Positions 355 through 9,227 of a stretch of DNA of 64,000 nt are shown piece by piece. The stretch comes from Litoreibacter meonggei. Lineage in GTDB: Bacteria; Pseudomonadota; Alphaproteobacteria; Rhodobacterales; Rhodobacteraceae. Location of the stretch: assembly GCF_003663885.1 (NCBI RefSeq), contig NZ_RCCE01000001.1, positions 248,001 through 312,000 on the forward strand, in the 5' to 3' direction. The stretch's first letter is position 1, and the number at the start of each line of letters is the position of its first letter. The notes beneath the pieces are model-generated. The model searched no databases. It saw only the letters and a list, made by a program, of their open reading frames with translations, and had not been told where the DNA came from. The position numbers and the translations under genes are program-made.

Positions 355-1224
355 CTACCGGTCCAACAATTTCCAAAACGCTATGACGGGCGCACGCATC
401 ATTTCTTTTTCATATCTTATTTTCCGCAGTTCCCGCTGACTTACCGAATGGGCCGGAACAAAAAACTCTACCCCATCGGGCTGGTTGCGCACTGCGTCAA
501 ACGGTAAAATGCTGGCCCCGAGCCCGCGCCGCACAAACGATAGGATTGCCGTCGTATTGCGCGCCTCAAGGGTGCTGGAGAAACGCAGTTCACTGACAAT
601 CGGATCATCGACCAGCTCGCAAAGCGGGTTAGCGATCAAAGGCTCAAGGCTGAGCAGCCCCCAATCGGATGCGCCTTGGGTGTCCAGATGCGCCCTATGG
701 ATGGGCCCGTTTTCGGGACAAACGATGCCCAGGTCGTCAGACCGAATGCGTTCACCCTCCAACGGGGCGTCAGGCCGTGCTGATACGATTCCAATGTCGG
801 CCTCATCGCGTTGAACACGTGCGCGGACAGTTGCGCTGTCTACATCGCTGATCTCAATTCGCACATCAGGGTGGACGGCGCGAAATGCCTCAATCACATC
901 TGGCAGCAAGGCCACTGTTGCGGACGGCACCGCCGCGATACGAACGATTCCTGCAGTCGATATCGCATGACGGCGGATTGCATCAGAACTTTTGTCAAAA
1001 ACATCGATGGCACGCTGACTTTCTTCCAGAACAAGCTGACCCAGTGGCGTTAGGCGGCTCTTTCTATCTGTCTCAAACAGGGTGCCGCCAACTTCTTTTT
1101 CAAATTGCGCCAACATCATGGACACCGCAGAAGGTGTCCGGCCCAAAACGGCGGCAGCCGCAGCAAGTGTGCCCTGCGCTGCCGTAACCGAGAATGCTCT
1201 GAGCATTTCGACCTTAATGGACAT
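355..1224 (-). CDS. LysR-family transcriptional regulator
   Basis: This 289-residue protein is a typical LysR regulator. An N-terminal winged helix-turn-helix (about residues 1-60, with AAAAAVLGRTPSAVSMMLAQ as recognition region) is followed by a linker helix and a periplasmic-binding-like effector domain (about 90-285). It is transcribed divergently from the aldehyde dehydrogenase gene 90 bases away, the classic LysR arrangement, so it probably controls the 1315-8211 catabolic genes and itself. A perfect 6-5-6 inverted repeat of T-N11-A type overlaps its start codon. The inducer is unknown; the context suggests the BCCT substrate or a breakdown product. Family is certain, target is inference. 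Confidence 0.9.
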   Translation of the reverse strand: MSIKVEMLRAFSVTAAQGTLAAAAAVLGRTPSAVSMMLAQFEKEVGGTLFETDRKSRLTPLGQLVLEESQRAIDVFDKSSDAIRRHAISTAGIVRIAAVPSATVALLPDVIEAFRAVHPDVRIEISDVDSATVRARVQRDEADIGIVSARPDAPLEGERIRSDDLGIVCPENGPIHRAHLDTQGASDWGLLSLEPLIANPLCELVDDPIVSELRFSSTLEARNTTAILSFVRRGLGASILPFDAVRNQPDGVEFFVPAHSVSQRELRKIRYEKEMMRAPVIAFWKLLDR

Positions 1225-1239
1225 TCAGAATTCCTGAAT
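1223..1239. promoter_or_regulatory. Candidate LysR operator
   Basis: ATTCAG and CTGAAT form a perfect inverted repeat with a 5-base spacer, matching the T-N11-A form of LysR-box sites. It sits over the start codon of the LysR gene and about 75 bases upstream of the divergent aldehyde dehydrogenase start. That placement would suit autorepression and activation of the divergent operon. No binding data exist here; it is a pattern call. Confidence 0.45.
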
Positions 1240-1314
1240 AAATGTTCAATTGTTTGAGAATGACTGAAGTTACCGCAGCGGTCTAGACCATATTTAAACA
1301 AATTGGAGACCAGC

Positions 1315-2766
1315 ATGACCGATCTTACGCAACTTTATATTGATGGCGCATGGACAGATGGGGCGACTCAAATCGAAAACCGCAACCCATCTGACACGTC
1401 GGACTTGATTGGGATGTATGCGCAAGCGGATGCGAGCCAGTTGGATGCGGCGCTTGCCGCCGCACGCCGTGCGCAATCTAAGTGGTGGGCCGCAGGCATT
1501 CAGAAGCGTCACGATGTGCTAATGGCAATCGGCACAGAATTGATGGCGCGCGCCGAAGAGATCGGGCGCATTTTGTCACGCGAAGAAGGCAAGCCGGTTG
1601 CCGAAGGTAAGGGGGAAGTGTACCGCGCTGGACAGTTCTTTACCTATTTTGCCGGAGAAACCCTGCGCCAGCATGGCGACCAGGCCGAGAGCGTGCGTCC
1701 GGGTATCGAGATTGACGTGCGCCGCGAGCCGGTCGGTGTTGTGGCGATCATCAGCCCTTGGAACTTTCCTGTGGCGACCCCTGCCTGGAAAATTGCCCCA
1801 GCGCTGGCCTTCGGCAACGCCGTCGTCTGGAAGCCTGCCAATGTTACCCCTGCCAGCGCCATTGCCCTGACCGAGATTATCTCTCGGCAGGACATTCCCA
1901 AAGGCCTGTTCAACCTCGTCGCCGGTCCCGGCCGCGATGTGGGGCAGCGCCTTGTAGAAAGCGCGCAAGTGGACGCGATCAGCTTTACCGGTTCCGTCCC
2001 TGTAGGCCGTGGTATCGCCGCCGCCGCCATGCTGAACATGACCAAGGTGCAGATGGAAATGGGGTCCAAGAACCCGTTGATCGTCATGGACGACGCAGAC
2101 ATTGATTTGGCTGTTATGCACGCCGCAGGCTCTGCCTTTGGGGGCACAGGTCAGAAATGCACCGCCGCAAGCCGCCTGATTGTTCACAGCGCCGTCCACG
2201 ATGCATTTGTCGAAAAGCTGGTTGCTGCCACCAAGGCGATGAAGGTCGGGCACGCACTTGAAGCGGGCACGCAACTTGGCCCGGTGGTCAGTGAAAGCCA
2301 GTTGAACCAGAACCTCGAATACGTAGGTATCGGCAAGGGCGAAGGCGCTGAATTGCTGTGTGGTGGCGACCGTTTGGAGATGGCAACAGATGGCTACTAC
2401 ATGTCGCCCGCCGTCTTTGCAAACACTCGCAATGACATGCGGATCAACCGCGAAGAGATGTTCGCACCGATAACGGTCGTGCAACGCGCCGATAGCTACG
2501 ACGAAGCTTTGAGCCTTGCCAATGACACTCAGTTTGGGCTGACTGCTGGCATCATGACAACCTCGCTTGCGCGGGCCAGCCACTTCCGCGCCAACATGCG
2601 GGCTGGCTGTGTAATGGTAAACCTGCCCACGGCGGGCACGGACTACCATGTGCCCTTCGGTGGCCGTGGTGCATCAAGCTTTGGCCCGCGCGAGCAAGGG
2701 TCATATGCGGCCGAGTTCTACACCACCGTGAAAACCGCATACGTGTCCGCGGGAGCACCCACATGA
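1315..2766 (+). CDS. NAD(P)+-dependent aldehyde dehydrogenase, semialdehyde type
   Basis: A full-length 483-residue aldehyde dehydrogenase. Visible active-site elements are SPWNFP with Asn150, general-base Glu248 in the EMGSKNP motif, and nucleophile Cys282 in GQKCTAASR. The EMGSKNPL...DDADIDLAV pattern resembles 2-oxoglutarate semialdehyde dehydrogenases of sugar-acid and hydroxyproline pathways, so a short dicarboxylic semialdehyde is the likely substrate; this is inference. I chose ATG 1315 because GGAG lies seven bases upstream; an in-frame TTG at 1303 has no such site. It is the first gene of the locus, and its stop overlaps the next start as ATGA, so the two are translationally coupled. 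Confidence 0.88.
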   Translation: MTDLTQLYIDGAWTDGATQIENRNPSDTSDLIGMYAQADASQLDAALAAARRAQSKWWAAGIQKRHDVLMAIGTELMARAEEIGRILSREEGKPVAEGKGEVYRAGQFFTYFAGETLRQHGDQAESVRPGIEIDVRREPVGVVAIISPWNFPVATPAWKIAPALAFGNAVVWKPANVTPASAIALTEIISRQDIPKGLFNLVAGPGRDVGQRLVESAQVDAISFTGSVPVGRGIAAAAMLNMTKVQMEMGSKNPLIVMDDADIDLAVMHAAGSAFGGTGQKCTAASRLIVHSAVHDAFVEKLVAATKAMKVGHALEAGTQLGPVVSESQLNQNLEYVGIGKGEGAELLCGGDRLEMATDGYYMSPAVFANTRNDMRINREEMFAPITVVQRADSYDEALSLANDTQFGLTAGIMTTSLARASHFRANMRAGCVMVNLPTAGTDYHVPFGGRGASSFGPREQGSYAAEFYTTVKTAYVSAGAPT

Positions 2767-3773
2767 CCTATCTGATCGACGGTCTGCAATACGCCAATTG
2801 GTCGGAAAAGATATTCCGGCAGATGCGATCGGGAGGCGTGGATGCTGTCCACGTCACCATTACCTATCACGAGACGTTTCGTGAAACAGTGCTGCTGATT
2901 GAGCAGTGGAACCGCTGGTTCGAACAATATCCCGACCTGATCTTTCAGGGCCGCACGGCTGACGATGTCCGCCATGCACGCGAAACCGGGCGCACGGCGA
3001 TCTTTTTTGGTTCGCAAAACCCGTCGTGCATCGAAGACGACATCGGGCTGGTCGAGGTCATGCACACGCTGGGACTGCGGTTCATGCAGTTAACCTACAA
3101 CAACCAGTCCCTGCTGGCGTCAGGTTGCTATGAAGACGAGGACACGGGCCTGACCCGCATGGGCCGTCAGGTGGTGGCCGAGATGAACCGTGTTGGCCTT
3201 GTCATCGACATGAGCCATTCTGGCGAGCGTTCAACCTTTGAGGCGATTGAGCATTCCAGTCGCCCGATCACAATCAGCCACGCGAACCCCGCCAGCTGGC
3301 ACAGCGCCTTGCGCAACAAATCCGATGATCTGCTGCGCACCCTTGGACAAAGCGGCGGGTTCCTTGGTCTTTCTGCCTATCCGCATCACCTGAAGGACGG
3401 CAGCAAATGCACGCTGCAATCCTGGTGCGATATGGCGGCGTTGGCTATTGATCTGGTGGGGTCACAGAATGTCGGCATCGGCACAGACCTGTGTCAGGAT
3501 CAACCCGACAGCATTGTCGAATGGATGCGCGTGGGCCGCTGGACCAAGGCCATCGACTACGGCGAAGGATCTGCCGCCAACGCAGGCTTTCCGGCCATGC
3601 CGAACTGGTTCCACGACAACCGTGATCTGGCAGGTATCCGCGAAGGGCTTTTGGCAGCTGGTCTGGACGTGGAAACCATAGACGGTGTGATGGGCGACAA
3701 CTGGCATGCCTTCTTTGACAAAAGTTTTGGGGCACAAGCCAGCCCCAAAGAAATCCAAAATGCTGCCGAATAG
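2763..3773 (+). CDS. Membrane dipeptidase (M19)-like protein, atypical metal site
   Basis: This 336-residue protein belongs to the amidohydrolase-fold M19 (renal dipeptidase, COG2355) family. Recognisable blocks are LGLRFMQLTYNN, IDMSHSGERS and ISHANP, which carry two probable metal-binding histidines, and GIGTDLCQ. The usual N-terminal HxD metal pair is absent: residues 5-10 read IDGLQY. The bridging-glutamate region reads FFGSQN instead of an EG motif. It therefore belongs to a divergent subfamily that may not be a peptidase. As I recall, similar proteins lie near glycine-betaine and dimethylglycine genes in Pseudomonas. It is coupled to the upstream dehydrogenase by ATGA, and the BCCT gene follows after 32 bases. 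A C-N hydrolase role on a betaine breakdown product is a guess. Confidence 0.8.
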   Translation: MTYLIDGLQYANWSEKIFRQMRSGGVDAVHVTITYHETFRETVLLIEQWNRWFEQYPDLIFQGRTADDVRHARETGRTAIFFGSQNPSCIEDDIGLVEVMHTLGLRFMQLTYNNQSLLASGCYEDEDTGLTRMGRQVVAEMNRVGLVIDMSHSGERSTFEAIEHSSRPITISHANPASWHSALRNKSDDLLRTLGQSGGFLGLSAYPHHLKDGSKCTLQSWCDMAALAIDLVGSQNVGIGTDLCQDQPDSIVEWMRVGRWTKAIDYGEGSAANAGFPAMPNWFHDNRDLAGIREGLLAAGLDVETIDGVMGDNWHAFFDKSFGAQASPKEIQNAAE

Positions 3774-3805
3774 GTGGCGCATCATCGCTTCTGGGAGGAA
3801 CAAAG

Positions 3806-5365
3806 ATGAGTGATACGAACAAAACGACGGGCCTAATTTCAGGCGGAACGGACAAGGCGCTCTTTGCAATCACGGGCGGCTTCATCGCCCTGTTCTGCGC
3901 CTATGCATTTTTCAACATTGACGGGCTCTCTGCGCTGGTGGACAGCAGCTTTGCGTTCTCGGCAAAGTATTTCGGGCTTTACTGGCAGATCCTTTTGCTG
4001 GCCACGTTTTTGATTGGTCTGGTGCTGTGCGTTCTGCCGGGCTCCAAGACCTTGATGGGCGCGCTGACCATGCCTGAATTTTCAACATTCAGCTGGGCGT
4101 CCATGATCATGTGCACATTGCTTGCGGGCGGTGGCGTGTTCTGGGCCGCGGGTGAGCCGATTGCGCATTTCCTCTCACCGCCGCCCGTCTTTGGTGACCT
4201 GAGCGGTGACGTGCAGGCGCAGGCCCATGCGGCCCTTGCCCAAAGCTTTCTGCACTGGGGTTTTCTGGCCTGGGCTATTCTTGGGTCGCTGACCACAGTG
4301 ATGCTGATGCATTACCACTACGACAAGGGTCTGCCGCTTGCCCCGCGCACGCTGCTTTACCCTGTCTTCGGTGACCGTGCCCTGACAGGCCCCATCGGCC
4401 TGATCGCGGATGCGTCCTGCATCATCGCAGTTGTAGCTGGCACCGTTGGCCCCATCGGCTTTCTTGGACTACAAATGTCTTACGGGTTGAACGAGTTGAC
4501 CGGTATTCCGGACAACTTTGCCACACAGGCTGTCGCGATCATGGCGCTTGTGGGCCTGTATACCGTTTCTGCGATTACCGGATTGGCCAAAGGCATCAAG
4601 ATCCTGTCGCAGATCAACGTGATCCTTGCAGGTGCACTGCTCGCTTTCATGCTTATTGCAGGCCCTACGATGGATATTTTTGCAGGCTTCTTCGGCGGCA
4701 TGCAGGTTTACGCTACGCATTTCTTTGACATGGCTATGTACCGCGGCGACGCTGGCTTGTTTGGCGATGCCGGTTGGCTGGGCTGGTGGACCGTGTTTTT
4801 CTGGGGCTGGTTCATGGGCTACGGTCCTTTGATGGCCGTTTTCATCGCACGCATCAGCCGCGGCCGTTCGATCCGCCAAATCATCCTGACGCTGTCAATC
4901 ATGGCACCTCTGATCACGAACTTCTGGTTCACGATCATCGGCGGCTCCGGCATCTTTTTCGAGATCGCTGAGCCCGGCATCATCTCCGCTCCATTCGAAG
5001 GCTTCAACCTGCCTGCAGGTCTGCTGGCAATCACCCAAGCCATGCCAATGGGGTTTATCCTGTCGGTCCTGTTTCTGGTTCTGACGATGTGTTTTGTCGC
5101 CACGACAAGCGACTCCATGAGCTATGTTATCTCCAGCACCATGACAACAGGCGAGCCTTCGTCCGCCATGCGCGCGTTCTGGGGTTTGGCCATGGGCGTG
5201 ATGGCTTTGATCCTGATCTCGACCGGATCGGGGGGGATCGGCAAATTACAAAGCTTCATCGTCGTGACGGCGGTACCGGTATCGCTGATCTTGCTGCCGT
5301 CCCTTTGGGATGCGTTGCGGATCACGCTGATGCTGGGCCGCGAACCTAAAGCTGAGACTGCATAA
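3806..5365 (+). CDS. BCCT-family betaine/choline/carnitine-type transporter
   Basis: A 519-residue inner-membrane carrier with about twelve hydrophobic segments. The BCCT signature is in the segment WTVFFWGWFMGYGP followed by FIARISRGRSIRQ, including the tryptophan-rich aromatic box. Family members import quaternary ammonium or sulfonium compounds such as glycine betaine, choline, carnitine or DMSP, with Na+ or H+ or by exchange. The protein lacks a long C-terminal osmosensory tail, ending soon after the last membrane helix, which fits nutrient uptake better than osmoregulation. GGGAGGA lies before the start. Its place among catabolic genes makes the substrate of this locus very likely a betaine-like compound; the exact one cannot be read from sequence. 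Confidence 0.93.
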   Translation: MSDTNKTTGLISGGTDKALFAITGGFIALFCAYAFFNIDGLSALVDSSFAFSAKYFGLYWQILLLATFLIGLVLCVLPGSKTLMGALTMPEFSTFSWASMIMCTLLAGGGVFWAAGEPIAHFLSPPPVFGDLSGDVQAQAHAALAQSFLHWGFLAWAILGSLTTVMLMHYHYDKGLPLAPRTLLYPVFGDRALTGPIGLIADASCIIAVVAGTVGPIGFLGLQMSYGLNELTGIPDNFATQAVAIMALVGLYTVSAITGLAKGIKILSQINVILAGALLAFMLIAGPTMDIFAGFFGGMQVYATHFFDMAMYRGDAGLFGDAGWLGWWTVFFWGWFMGYGPLMAVFIARISRGRSIRQIILTLSIMAPLITNFWFTIIGGSGIFFEIAEPGIISAPFEGFNLPAGLLAITQAMPMGFILSVLFLVLTMCFVATTSDSMSYVISSTMTTGEPSSAMRAFWGLAMGVMALILISTGSGGIGKLQSFIVVTAVPVSLILLPSLWDALRITLMLGREPKAETA

Positions 5366-5371
5366 CCCAAT

Positions 5372-5400
5372 AACGTGGCGCGCCGCGGGTGCGCCACGTT
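5372..5400 (+). terminator. Intercistronic hairpin after BCCT gene
   Basis: Arms AACGTGGCGC and GCGCCACGTT form a perfect 10-bp stem around a 9-base loop, seven bases after the BCCT stop. Only a few T residues follow, so it is more likely a partial terminator or mRNA-stabilising hairpin than a full stop. The next gene starts 34 bases later in the same direction. Confidence 0.5.
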
Positions 5401-5433
5401 TGCCACACATCTGCACTTTTGGGAGGATCTGCT

Positions 5434-7110
5434 ATGTCATTGAATACCTCAATCCTATCCACTGAAACTCTAGAATATATGCGTCCGGCAACTGAGGTCA
5501 TGCGCCTTGCCCGCATGGGCTGTGGCCACCCGACCCGCCTGTCATTTCTGCGCGTGCTATTGCGGCGTCTTGCATCGAGCGATTGGAAAATTGACCGTCC
5601 CGTCTGGAACGTGGACGCGAACGGCGTCGGCCACGGAGTATACCGCGTCAAAAGCGCCGAGCGCACTTATAGCCTTGTGGCCTTTGCCCACGACCTGCCC
5701 CCAGAAATGCGGTCCGACCGTGTGATCGCGACCGCATGGGACGCGACATTTACCTTGTTCGACGGTGAACCAACAGCAGAAGATATCGCACGACTGGCAG
5801 ACAATGTTCCTTACCAAGAAGCCGGGCGCATTAGCACCAAGGAATTGACGCTCGCCCGTGCCAATCGCTCGGTGCGGTTATTCGAACATGTGGTCAATGC
5901 ATTGGCGCAAGGATGCCAGCCTGATCCGGCCGAAATTGCCGCCGTAGGATATCTGATGCGCACCACGGCAGTTTATGGATCGGGCAAGTTTGGCGCATCA
6001 GACCGCGCCGATATCGCTCAGCGGCCTGAACTTGCCGCGCCGTTTCAGGTGGAAATGCTCACCGTCTGGCTGATCCGCGCCTTTACCGTCGATATCGTCG
6101 AGCATATCGCGACTGCCCGAGGTGGAAAGACCGCTGTAAAGCTGGATCGCGACATCCGCCGCAGCCTTGGTGTTGGTAATTCCACCGGCCTCGGGATGGC
6201 CCCTTTCATTGTGCGCCACCCTGTTTTGCTTAACAATTGGATGATGGCCCGTGAAGAGGCACTGGCCCGCGTTCGTGCACAGCCAACTGCTCGGTCTCAG
6301 GCTGTTTCGGACCTGAGCGCTGCGCTGGATGCGGCAATCACGAACGCTAGGGTTTGGCACTCCGAGCATCCTATTCAGGTCTGCAAGCTGGATGAGCTGC
6401 GCCATGACCTCGCCTTGCTTTCGACAACGCTGAATACGTGGGACTGGAAGGGCGAACATCCTTGGGATGCTCTTTGGAGCTGGGGTGTCCAAACCCTGAC
6501 CTTTGAAGGACAAGAGGCGCTTTTGTCCCTTATGCTGGAGCCTCACGGCGCACTGGTCGACGATCTGGCCGACCATATGGGGGCTGATGAAGCGGCCAGT
6601 TTCAGGATCGACGGCGCGATGCCCGTGGCCGAGTTGCGCCGCATTCTGGAAACCCATTACGCTTGGGCGCTTGCGATTGATTTCACCTCACCCGAAAATG
6701 TCGCACGGTTCTGGTATGTCTCTGAAGAAAAGCTTGAGCCTCGTTTGGGCGAGCGCGCGACCGAGGACGGCGCGACATTGGAACAGCCGCTTTGCATCGC
6801 GCGCCTGATGTCAGAGCTTCATGCAGCGGTGCAAAGTTTTGACGGTACGCGATCCGTCGCAGCGCTGATGTTGGCACATCCAGAACATCGCTTTGCGGTG
6901 CGGCGCGTGCAGATCGCAAAGCGCCACCCCTATGCCGAAGTGCAAGACAACCTCATCGCCGCCGACATGCTGCCAATCGATCTCTTGCGTTGCAAACTAG
7001 CCTTTTTCGGCGCGAGCCAGTTCGACCCCCGTTCGGATCGCTGGGTGCGCATCAACCTATTTGCAGGCGCACCCTTCCCCGATGACATCAAAGCGGGAGG
7101 TGCCGTATGA
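5434..7110 (+). CDS. Uncharacterised 558-residue cytoplasmic protein
   Basis: I do not recognise a characterised family. The protein is 558 residues, without signal peptide or membrane helix, and is rich in tryptophan and in acidic and basic residues. An N-terminal part (about 15-110) includes RMGCGHPTRLSFLR and YSLVAFAHDLP. A helical middle (about 110-330) includes GKFGASDR, and a C-terminal part (about 380-540) includes RFWYVSEEKLEPRLGER and YAEVQDNL. No nucleotide-binding, metal or haem motif stands out. ATG 5434 is chosen for its GGGAGGA site; the frame opens earlier without one. It overlaps the DUF3726 gene as ATGA, which suggests the two proteins act together, perhaps as one enzyme. Co-transcription with BCCT and RidA suggests a catabolic role (inference). 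Confidence 0.85.
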   Translation: MSLNTSILSTETLEYMRPATEVMRLARMGCGHPTRLSFLRVLLRRLASSDWKIDRPVWNVDANGVGHGVYRVKSAERTYSLVAFAHDLPPEMRSDRVIATAWDATFTLFDGEPTAEDIARLADNVPYQEAGRISTKELTLARANRSVRLFEHVVNALAQGCQPDPAEIAAVGYLMRTTAVYGSGKFGASDRADIAQRPELAAPFQVEMLTVWLIRAFTVDIVEHIATARGGKTAVKLDRDIRRSLGVGNSTGLGMAPFIVRHPVLLNNWMMAREEALARVRAQPTARSQAVSDLSAALDAAITNARVWHSEHPIQVCKLDELRHDLALLSTTLNTWDWKGEHPWDALWSWGVQTLTFEGQEALLSLMLEPHGALVDDLADHMGADEAASFRIDGAMPVAELRRILETHYAWALAIDFTSPENVARFWYVSEEKLEPRLGERATEDGATLEQPLCIARLMSELHAAVQSFDGTRSVAALMLAHPEHRFAVRRVQIAKRHPYAEVQDNLIAADMLPIDLLRCKLAFFGASQFDPRSDRWVRINLFAGAPFPDDIKAGGAV

Positions 7111-7832
7111 GTTTTGAACCTCAGGACCAGACTCGCGGCGATTCCACTCCGTTTTTTGGCGACACAGAGCCCGCGCCGTTGTCGTGCAATGAAGCCGCAT
7201 CCTTGTGCATGAAAGCCGCGCGTGGCGCTGGTATGAGCTGGGGCATGGCCGAAGAAGCAGGGTTTGCAGCAGCTTGGCTGGTGTCGCATGGTATTGATGG
7301 ACCGTCCCATATGCGCGCACATCTGGAACGCGCGGATGGGCGCGACTGGGCAGACCTGTGCCCGTCAGCAACCCCCGGCGACTGGCAAAATGCACATGGT
7401 CAGCCTGCCTGCCCAATCATTCTGGGTGCGACGATGTGCGACTATGCCGACCTGCCCGAAGGGCCAAACTCTGGCGCGACGGTTGCACTCGGTCCGGTCA
7501 GCGCGCCCATTCTATTGGTCCCTTTCTTGGTTGAACTGGCACACAGCAAAAGTCTGGCGTTCACGTTGTCTTGGCCAGAGGGTGCGATCCGTATCGACAA
7601 CGATGAAACGTGGCTCCAAGCGGCCTTGCAGTCCCTTGGCGTGCCGCAACTTGTGCTGACATTATCCGCCAAAGCCGCCCAGCCACATAAGCCGTCTGCC
7701 GCATCCATGCCCAACGCTCAAACCACCGCTGCGACCATTGCAGCCCTCAACGCTTTCGCCATGCGCACCACCGTACCTGCCACAGAGGCATCACGCACTG
7801 GCGCCGGATCAACCCTAAGTGACAATGATTGA
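7107..7832 (+). CDS. DUF3726-like protein
   Basis: A 241-residue protein whose N-terminal region (about 25-110, with CNEAASLCMKAARGAGMSWG and GFAAAWL) resembles the DUF3726 family seen in Rhodobacterales and other marine proteobacteria; function is unknown. There is no signal peptide or clear membrane helix. The last 60 residues are Ala/Thr/Pro-rich and low in complexity. Its start overlaps the stop of the 558-residue protein by four bases, and RidA follows 13 bases after its stop. The coupling argues for a complex or joint reaction with the upstream unknown. The family call is from memory of the sequence pattern and should be checked by profile search. Confidence 0.78.
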   Translation: MSFEPQDQTRGDSTPFFGDTEPAPLSCNEAASLCMKAARGAGMSWGMAEEAGFAAAWLVSHGIDGPSHMRAHLERADGRDWADLCPSATPGDWQNAHGQPACPIILGATMCDYADLPEGPNSGATVALGPVSAPILLVPFLVELAHSKSLAFTLSWPEGAIRIDNDETWLQAALQSLGVPQLVLTLSAKAAQPHKPSAASMPNAQTTAATIAALNAFAMRTTVPATEASRTGAGSTLSDND

Positions 7833-7845
7833 CAAAGGAAATATC

Positions 7846-8211
7846 ATGACACTCTCCCGCCTCAACCCCGGCCCTCGTATGAGTCAAGCCGTGACCATCG
7901 GAAACATCGCATTTCTCGCAGGCCAAGTGCCCGACGACCTGAGTGCAGACATCGAAACGCAAACCCGACAAGTGCTGACGAAACTGGACAAAGTCGTCGC
8001 TGAGCTGGGCGCGACCAAATCCGACATCGCATCTGTCCAAGTCTGGCTGGCCGATATGGCCGACTTTCAAGGGATGAACGCGATCTGGGACGAATGGGTC
8101 AGCAAAGACGCCCCGCCTGCGCGCGCAACTGGCGGTACGTCCCTCGCGCGTCCCGGCATGCGCGTCGAAATGATCGCTGTCGTCGCCCTGCCAGAGGCCG
8201 CCGCCGCTTAA
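7846..8211 (+). CDS. RidA-family reactive enamine/imine deaminase
   Basis: A 121-residue YjgF/YER057c/UK114 (RidA) family protein of typical length. The pattern PRMSQAVTIGNIAFLAGQVP near the N-terminus, and the C-terminal block ARATGGTSLARPGMRVEMIAVVAL with its conserved arginine, match the family. RidA proteins form trimers and hydrolyse 2-imino acids and enamines released by PLP or flavin enzymes. ATG 7846 is used because AAAGGAA precedes it by six bases; an in-frame ATG at 7825 has poor spacing. As last gene of the BCCT locus it suggests that an imine or enamine arises in the pathway. A second, distinct RidA lies at 42006-42389. Confidence 0.9.
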   Translation: MTLSRLNPGPRMSQAVTIGNIAFLAGQVPDDLSADIETQTRQVLTKLDKVVAELGATKSDIASVQVWLADMADFQGMNAIWDEWVSKDAPPARATGGTSLARPGMRVEMIAVVALPEAAAA

Positions 8212-8321
8212 TCAAAGTGAGGCCGGAGCCGCAACGCGCCGCTCCGGCCTGCTGTTCGGGTGACAATCACGTCCTCCCAATTTCTCGTTCCATTGGCACA
8301 TCGACAAAGGGTGACACGGCA

Positions 8322-9227
8322 GTGATAATAAAGGAACAGCCCTCTGGATTGACACTTTTTGTAGAAATGCAGGGGTCCATTGTTCCACAGATCCTCTCAA
8401 AGATCGCCGGTTTCACGGTCTTTTCCAGCGCAATCATGGCTCTGGATACCCGTTTGGTTTTCATCCCACATGTTTCGCTCACAGCGATGAGTGTCTTCGG
8501 GATAGCGCTGTCGTTGTTCTTGGGGTTTCGCAATAATGCGGCCTACGATCGTTGGTGGGAGGGCCGCAAGCTTTGGGGTGGTATCATTGCCGACGTGCGC
8601 AATCTGGCCAAAACCTGCGAGATTTTCGTCCCCGACATCAAAGACCGCAAAGACATTCTGGATGTTGTTGTGGCTTTTGCACATTTCCACCGAGGCATGC
8701 TACGCGGTGTGGACGCCAGTAAAGACGCGGCAAACTGGATTGGCGTCGCAAACGCGGCCACTCTTGCAGGCAAAAGCAACAGCACCGATGGGGCATTGCG
8801 TGTGATCTCGGAACAGATCAGACATCTTCACGCGCAGGGTGCGATCAACGATTTTGGCCAGATTTCGATCGGCAAGATCATCACATCGCTTGGCCTGCAT
8901 CAGGCCGGTTGTGAGCGTATTGCAACGACCCCGCTGCCCTTCGTCTATTCCTTGCTGGTCCGCCGCACGACCTACCTCTATTGCCTCTTGCTGCCCTTCG
9001 CTCTGCTCGAAGTAGCGGGGCCGCTTTTGCCATTCTTCGTTGCCGTCGTTGCCTATGTTTTCTTTGGCTTACAAGCGGTGACAAATGAACTGGAGCATCC
9101 TTTCCGAATGGTCAAAAATGGCCTGCCTCTGGATGCGATGTGTCGGGTGGTCGAAATTTCGGTGTCAGAAGCAACAGACCGCGAACCGCCCCCAGCTCTC
9201 TCTGCGACCAATCACGTTTTAAGTTAG
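8322..9227 (+). CDS. Bestrophin-like (YneE/UPF0187) membrane channel protein
   Basis: About 301 residues with the bestrophin-like core: a hydrophobic helix near residues 20-40, ALSLFLGFRNNAAYDRWWEGRKLWG, and a C-terminal PFAL...HPF block with paired helices and NELEHPF. Bacterial homologues form pentameric ion channels; some are cation-selective and others anion channels. The frame opens at 8094 inside ridA, but family length and the AAAGGG site favour GTG 8322, giving MIIKEQPSGL as N-terminus. It follows RidA by 110 bases in the same direction and may be transcribed with the locus, although a link to betaine uptake or osmotic balance is speculative. Confidence 0.85.
   Translation: MIIKEQPSGLTLFVEMQGSIVPQILSKIAGFTVFSSAIMALDTRLVFIPHVSLTAMSVFGIALSLFLGFRNNAAYDRWWEGRKLWGGIIADVRNLAKTCEIFVPDIKDRKDILDVVVAFAHFHRGMLRGVDASKDAANWIGVANAATLAGKSNSTDGALRVISEQIRHLHAQGAINDFGQISIGKIITSLGLHQAGCERIATTPLPFVYSLLVRRTTYLYCLLLPFALLEVAGPLLPFFVAVVAYVFFGLQAVTNELEHPFRMVKNGLPLDAMCRVVEISVSEATDREPPPALSATNHVLS

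Follow-up and report, generated by a model that had tools for sequence, protein, structure and literature searches.

Gene content and organization of the locus

A stretch of 64,000 nucleotides from Litoreibacter meonggei (contig NZ_RCCE01000001.1, positions 248,001 to 312,000; hereafter, the window) was analyzed. Near its start lie seven genes that a first-pass annotation, made from the sequence alone, had read as a possible undescribed catabolic system for a betaine-like compound, naming homarine among the candidate substrates. A divergent gene for a LysR-type regulator is followed by co-directional genes for an aldehyde dehydrogenase (ALDH), an M19-like protein, a BCCT carrier, a 558-residue protein (P558), a DUF3726 protein, and a RidA-family protein. 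All seven genes, their order, and the divergence of the regulator were confirmed as originally described.

The LysR-type regulator (355-1224, minus strand) matched PF03466 and PF00126. The range given in the first-pass annotation began at 1223, in the start codon of this gene, so the regulator lies outside that range. A putative LysR operator occupies positions 1224-1268, with a TTCAG-N5-CTGAA palindrome at 1224-1238 and more half-sites up to 1268. In 14 aligned sequences, the TTCAG/CTGAA-type half-sites of the LysR-ALDH gap were largely conserved, and a count of exact palindromes in this gap gave none in the window at the spacing tested.

The ALDH gene (1315-2766, plus strand, as are all the following genes) was assigned the ATG start at 1315, which lies behind GGAGA, is conserved in the 14-sequence alignment, and was preferred over TTG at 1303. 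The best NCBIfam model for its product was alpha-ketoglutaric semialdehyde dehydrogenase, at 495.3 bits and thus below the cut-off of 770 bits. It is followed by the M19-like protein, which has the amidohydrolase fold and a degenerate metal site (2763-3773; PF01244), and by the BCCT carrier, of the type used for betaine uptake (3806-5365; PF02028, 481 bits). Next are P558 (5434-7110), the DUF3726 protein (7107-7832; PF12525, 94.9 bits against a cut-off of 22.1), and RidA (7846-8211; PF01042), for which an in-frame GTG at 7819 is a possible alternative start. The two predicted ATGA overlaps proved exact, with four bases shared between ALDH and the M19-like gene (2763-2766) and between P558 and DUF3726 (7107-7110).

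The next gene after RidA encodes a bestrophin-family protein (8094-9227). Since the longest reading frame of this gene extends into the end of RidA, the gene probably starts later. When the eight proteins from LysR to bestrophin were scanned with Pfam, no Rieske, luciferase-type, or other known demethylase or oxygenase family was found, as the first-pass annotation had noted.

Conservation of an M19-P558-DUF3726 core

The surroundings of P558 were compared in two sets of genomes. The named-genome set comprised the closest 80 of 401 confirmed stretches and is biased towards the window's type of locus. The family sample comprised 198 genomes from 197 genera. The figures for both sets carry no correction for relatedness. 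Around P558 in the 80 named loci, we found the M19-like gene in 75, DUF3726 in 79, ALDH in 65, BCCT in 52, RidA in 46, and an Ldh-family gene in 18; a LysR gene of the window's type lay at most 9 kb from P558 in 53. LysR, ALDH, M19, BCCT, DUF3726, and RidA were all present in 34 of the 54 named loci with room on both sides. Thus, the genes are co-located in many genomes, contrary to the first of the outcomes that the first-pass annotation had named as refuting its reading.

P558 and DUF3726 overlapped by ATGA, GTGA, or TTGA in 67 of the 80 named loci and were fused into one 760-codon frame in 4 (L066, L079, L088, and L099); a similar fusion was seen in a Mesorhizobium record. Conservation around P558, together with this overlap and fusion, therefore identifies M19-P558-DUF3726 as the constant core, and the overlap and fusion suggest that P558 and DUF3726 act as one unit. 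A chance neighborhood of unrelated metabolic genes is hardly credible as an explanation. Nothing was found in its favor beyond the fact that LysR, ALDH, and BCCT are common families, and it is contradicted by the retention of the whole set, by the overlap, and by the fusions.

Homologues of P558 were present in 91 of the 198 family genomes (90 of 197 genera). They also occurred in 52 of the 54 genomes of the genus of Ruegeria sediminis, a count for the genus and not for Ruegeria pomeroyi itself. Furthermore, 168 plasmid records matched P558, among them those of rhizobia, Burkholderiales, Vibrio, and a haloarchaeon. Locus classes in the family sample rest on stretches of at most ~20 kb, which in places were truncated where a contig ended, and the class of some clusters may therefore be wrong. 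Within the stretches fetched, the core recurred together with the family's ALDH, Ldh, or RidA in 53 of the 198 genomes and stood alone in 38, some of these on short contigs.

A second M19-P558-DUF3726 copy was found on another contig of the window genome (L134, contig C3, 8369-11588), with the family's ALDH, Ldh, RidA, and BCCT genes not nearby. Distant P558 homologues (31-34%) accompanied by an M19-like gene and a second small protein of ~240 residues were found on Sinorhizobium pSymB (L036), in Aminobacter (L039), and in Variovorax (L040). All three loci carry an IclR-type regulator, annotated in two and named by eye in Sinorhizobium, and in Sinorhizobium and Aminobacter these genes are followed by ABC genes and RidA. 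On a Natrinema plasmid (L037, 8100-13294), a haloarchaeal P558 relative (31%) precedes an uncharacterized gene and then a BCCT gene, which suggests transfer between domains of life.

These loci bear on the idea that the core carries out a general activity, such as the processing of cyclic imines or amides, and was recruited to many pathways, in which case the window would not be specifically a homarine locus. The core-only paralogue in the window genome and the genomes with the core alone are what such an activity would leave, as are the distant P558 genes with M19-like and other transport genes and the Natrinema locus, where M19 was not detected. The idea is nevertheless improbable, given that in the family sample the core recurs as a unit with ALDH, Ldh, or RidA genes of the family.

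Predicted folds and metal sites of the core proteins

P558, which had been described as belonging to an unknown family, gave no match in Pfam or NCBIfam at E ≤ 0.1. Its structure was predicted with confidence (pLDDT 86.6, pTM 0.89). A search for a known fold failed, since none of 93 Foldseek matches in the PDB reached E ≤ 0.001 and the query TM was at most 0.11 among the 50 matches listed. Profile searches of PDB sequences likewise returned weak matches only (best E 0.42). Arg, Tyr, Asn, Glu, and Gly are represented among the residues that do not vary in a 20-sequence alignment reaching down to ~30% identity, and His and Cys are not. His224 and His262 are kept in at least 90% of these sequences and are invariant or nearly so in closer relatives; P558 may have a metal site, as these two residues are strongly kept.

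The DUF3726 model (pLDDT 88.0) resembles a shortened Ldh2 fold, i.e., that of malate, ureidoglycolate, and imino-acid reductases. The 25 best fold matches in the PDB were all of Ldh2 type; 2 of 148 matches reached E ≤ 0.001 (best E 8.1e-4), with query TM values of 0.33-0.42. A relationship to Ldh2 by sequence was not recovered, as hhalign gave a probability of just 3.5%, and the link is therefore based on the fold comparison. The window protein has SHG at residues 60-62, which we take to be the active-site motif of Ldh2 oxidoreductases, with Ser and His at these positions not conserved across the family.

Canonical M19 dipeptidases hold a binuclear metal site built from an HxD motif, a bridging Glu, and two His residues. 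Sequence comparison indicated that three canonical metal ligands are gone from the M19-like protein, which justifies the earlier label "atypical M19". It has LQY at residues 8-10, where HxD would presumably be placed, and Gln85 aligns with the Glu of a canonical dipeptidase. In contrast, His152 is kept in 171 of 171 copies, His173 in 162 of 171, and Asp242 in 164 of 171 (the other seven being gaps). The nearest solved relative (2i5g) shares both features, lacking HxD at this site and carrying Gln in the position of the Glu. With His152, His173, and Asp242 kept and the HxD and Glu replaced, a mononuclear metal site is likely.

RidA-type and Ldh-type loci

RidA is found in loci of the window's type, and in many others an Ldh-family gene lies to one side of the core, either downstream or upstream. 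Some P558 loci have both genes, and some have neither in view. The RidA proteins have the PF01042 family fold, and Arg93, presumably the catalytic-type Arg, is kept in at least 97% of 47 copies. The closest PDB structure to the Ldh of Ruegeria sp. TM1040 was delta1-piperideine-2-carboxylate reductase (1wtj; E 4.8e-53), a cyclic imine reductase that makes N-methyl amino acids too. Among the 20 Ldh copies listed, the presumed active-site motif was SHG in 11 and ICG in 9. Both RidA and Ldh point to an imine or enamine intermediate.

The window genome also encodes an Ldh of the ICG type that is unlinked to the operon (L259, contig C2) and 62% identical to the Roseibacterium Ldh. It lacks the SHG motif but otherwise retains the family sequence. 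This gene weakens the idea of a strict exchange of RidA for Ldh; the replacement is therefore not strict, and a mixed RidA/Ldh route in this organism is possible.

Link to N-methylglutamate dehydrogenase

SoxBDAG-like genes adjoin the Ldh clusters of Ruegeria sp. TM1040, Phaeobacter (M632), Roseibacterium (L113), a Roseateles-labelled record marked as unverified organism, and four further genomes (G100, G117, G086, and G075). Most of these clusters also carry a GlxA/AraC-type regulator gene. To place the SoxB-like proteins, a 31-row tree was used in which SoxB-like copies sharing a contig with gmaS within ~18 kb served as the reference for MgdA, a component of N-methylglutamate dehydrogenase (Mgd). 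The copies of Roseibacterium, G100, and G117 share a clade (support 89/75) with 11 of the 12 gmaS-linked copies, and those of Roseibacterium and G117 sit on firmly supported branches within it, far from true SoxB. Thus, three of the four P558-linked SoxB-like genes from Ldh-type loci on the tree group with MgdA and not with true SoxB.

Outside this Mgd clade, true SoxB (4 rows) and a "mid" clade (8 rows) form groups of their own. The Roseateles-labelled copy, the gmaS-linked G083 copy, and the G224 and G226 copies form near-base branches without firm placement. The mid clade (L244-L246, L248, L252-L254, and L256) has support 100/100 and is distinct from both true SoxB and the MgdA core. The window genome has one copy of the mid clade and one of true SoxB only.

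Since Mgd also acts in the methylamine pathway, for which gmaS (TIGR03105) is a marker, co-occurrence was examined in gmaS-negative genomes. The Mgd clade was called by bit score (at least 700) plus a truncated G159 copy, 31 rows being tree-checked, and the G083 (717 bits) and G224 copies fall outside the Mgd core on the tree. The underlying gene lists were compiled by hand, and G172 and G015, which have ambiguous Sox/Mgd copies, were left out. In the family sample, the Mgd clade was present in 11 of 24 Ldh-type genomes and in 7 of 111 others (Fisher p = 8.6e-6). In three of these 11 (G075, G100, and G117), the linkage is physical. By hand sorting, it accompanied the TM1040-like Ldh in 10 of 18 genomes and the Roseibacterium-like Ldh in 1 of 6.

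No Mgd clade was called in gmaS-negative RidA-type genomes, neither in the 4 of the family sample, one with the window's RidA and three with a divergent upstream RidA, nor in the 19 of the named set, which include G226 with its loosely placed copy. Pelagimonas varians is an example of a RidA-type strain that has neither gmaS nor the Mgd clade. In the named set, the genome search took in 41 of the 80 loci, and the RidA-type count included neither G221, where RidA and Ldh occur together, nor any gmaS-positive genome. Pooling gave 12 of 28 Ldh-type against 0 of 23 RidA-type genomes (p = 2e-4), a figure that relatedness may drive; in each sample alone, the difference was not significant (p = 0.13 and 0.17). 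RidA-type genomes with gmaS usually have the Mgd clade too, e.g., Planktotalea frisia. In this species, the Mgd genes (L255, 849-13112) have two open reading frames on one side and ABC genes of betaine type on the other, with identities assigned by eye throughout; the two frames may encode a methylamine-demethylating oxygenase and its reductase. As gmaS is on the same contig, this is probably the methylamine cluster of P. frisia.

Homarine as the probable substrate

We consider it fairly probable that the window genes form an operon, controlled by LysR, through which homarine (N-methylpicolinate), or an N-methylated pyridine carboxylate very similar to it, is taken up and catabolized. The BCCT carrier fits a zwitterionic N-methylpyridinium carboxylate. 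The observation behind the first-pass annotation is real and its chemistry was perceptive: import of a betaine, release of an imine, and oxidation of a semialdehyde are all consistent with the genes, and homarine is the best of the substrates it named. Its word "undescribed" is doubtful, because a bacterial homarine pathway was published in 2026 (Ferrer-Gonzalez et al., Nat Microbiol 11:1531-1546), with reported content that fits the gene set.

The operon described there is said to be homABCDER, with N-methylglutamate and glutamate as products; neither homABCDER nor DUF3726 was found mentioned in the literature searched. Its reported five genes and regulator equal in number ALDH, M19, P558, DUF3726, and Ldh plus LysR, which is a lead and not a test. 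Mgd is named as a participant in homarine catabolism in the discussion section of PMC13390433, a 2026 paper that cites Ferrer-Gonzalez et al. for this, and linkage to Mgd is what we found in Ldh-type relatives of the window operon. In contrast, the window operon has RidA and no Ldh, and its genome has no Mgd clade. The window system is thus probably a RidA-bearing variant of the homarine operon family reported in 2026.

The conversion of homarine to N-methylglutamate seems, by reasoning, to need an oxidative cut between C5 and C6. A parallel is offered by the tgn genes for trigonelline in Acinetobacter, where a flavin reductase/monooxygenase pair opens the ring to an N-formyl-N-methyl semialdehyde, followed by ALDH and amide hydrolysis. 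The route proposed here would share with it the N-methylpyridinium carboxylate, the ring opening to an N-formyl-N-methyl semialdehyde, the ALDH step, and the amide hydrolysis. The flavin-dependent two-component ring monooxygenase, in contrast, was not found among the eight scanned proteins.

We infer the substrate, the order of the steps, and the assignment of chemistry to proteins as follows. After import of the zwitterion by the BCCT carrier, the ring would be opened by the P558-DUF3726 unit, probably together with the M19-like protein, to an N-formyl-N-methyl amino-semialdehyde, by analogy with trigonelline, and ALDH would oxidize the semialdehyde. The M19-like protein, or P558 itself, would remove the formyl group to give the N-methyl enamine or imine of 2-oxoglutarate. 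In relatives, the Ldh-family reductase would convert this to N-methylglutamate, which Mgd would then demethylate; in the window variant, RidA would hydrolyze it to 2-oxoglutarate and methylamine. The first-pass suggestion that two unknown proteins supply the missing chemistry thus maps to P558 and DUF3726, probably also with the M19-like protein.

A more specific proposal is offered tentatively, as one that may well prove wrong. P558-DUF3726 might be a two-subunit enzyme of new fold that opens the N-methylpyridinium ring in a manner unlike Rieske or luciferase-type enzymes. In it, DUF3726 would serve as an NAD(P)H-binding partner of degenerate Ldh2 type, and the M19-like protein would have been repurposed as a partner with a mononuclear metal site. 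The pathway might then end with Ldh and Mgd, nitrogen being recovered as glutamate, or with RidA, carbon being recovered and methylamine released.

Another betaine (trigonelline, proline betaine, carnitine, or glutamate betaine) might be degraded instead, with RidA, Ldh, and Mgd acting on a different N-methyl imine. Uptake genes do vary beside the core, from BCCT here to glycine-betaine-type or branched-chain-type ABC genes in other loci, and the best, below-cut-off ALDH model could suit a hydroxyproline-like route. We regard this alternative as unlikely, because no known demethylase or oxygenase family was found in the proteins scanned and because Mgd linkage in relatives points to N-methylglutamate. 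Glycine betaine and stachydrine are demethylated through Rieske gbc and stc genes, dgcAB, and soxBDAG. These systems share betaine uptake with the window operon, and in one locus (L096) a true SoxB gene lies near P558. Glycine-betaine demethylation was set aside, since the window operon has no Rieske oxygenase or reductase gene among the proteins scanned and most P558-linked Sox-like copies on the tree, L096 excepted, group with MgdA.

Several observations weigh against homarine as the substrate or against the proposed endings. No recognizable oxygenase for the oxidative ring cut is present in the operon. The SoxB-like gene of L096 is true SoxB, the tree does not put the Roseateles-labelled copy in the Mgd core, and 13 of the 24 gmaS-negative Ldh-type genomes have no Mgd clade. 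In the window genome itself, gmaS did not exceed the cut-off and the Mgd clade is absent, so that no route leading from either N-methylglutamate or methylamine to ammonia is visible there. A mauA search gave no match in this genome, nor did its control search give one anywhere, and the gene may still be present. The RidA branch would thus leave methylamine unused in this organism as far as gmaS and Mgd go. The unlinked ICG-type Ldh of the window genome is a further complication.

Implications

Homarine is common in algae and has been found in diatoms, and the model marine bacterium R. pomeroyi draws it down within hours (PMC12817926). A 2022 paper listed it among compounds with no confirmed transporter in R. 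pomeroyi (PMC9723723). P558 is spread over 90 of the 197 sampled genera of the family, and in 53 of the 198 genomes the DNA fetched around it also holds ALDH, Ldh, or RidA genes of the family. Homarine breakdown by related bacteria has probably been published already, which leaves the way in which P558 and DUF3726 work as the point of interest. If the reading given here is true, the least understood step of the pathway narrows to a defined protein pair, P558-DUF3726. The two endings would then predict that some bacteria recover the nitrogen of homarine, whereas others release methylamine for their neighbours.

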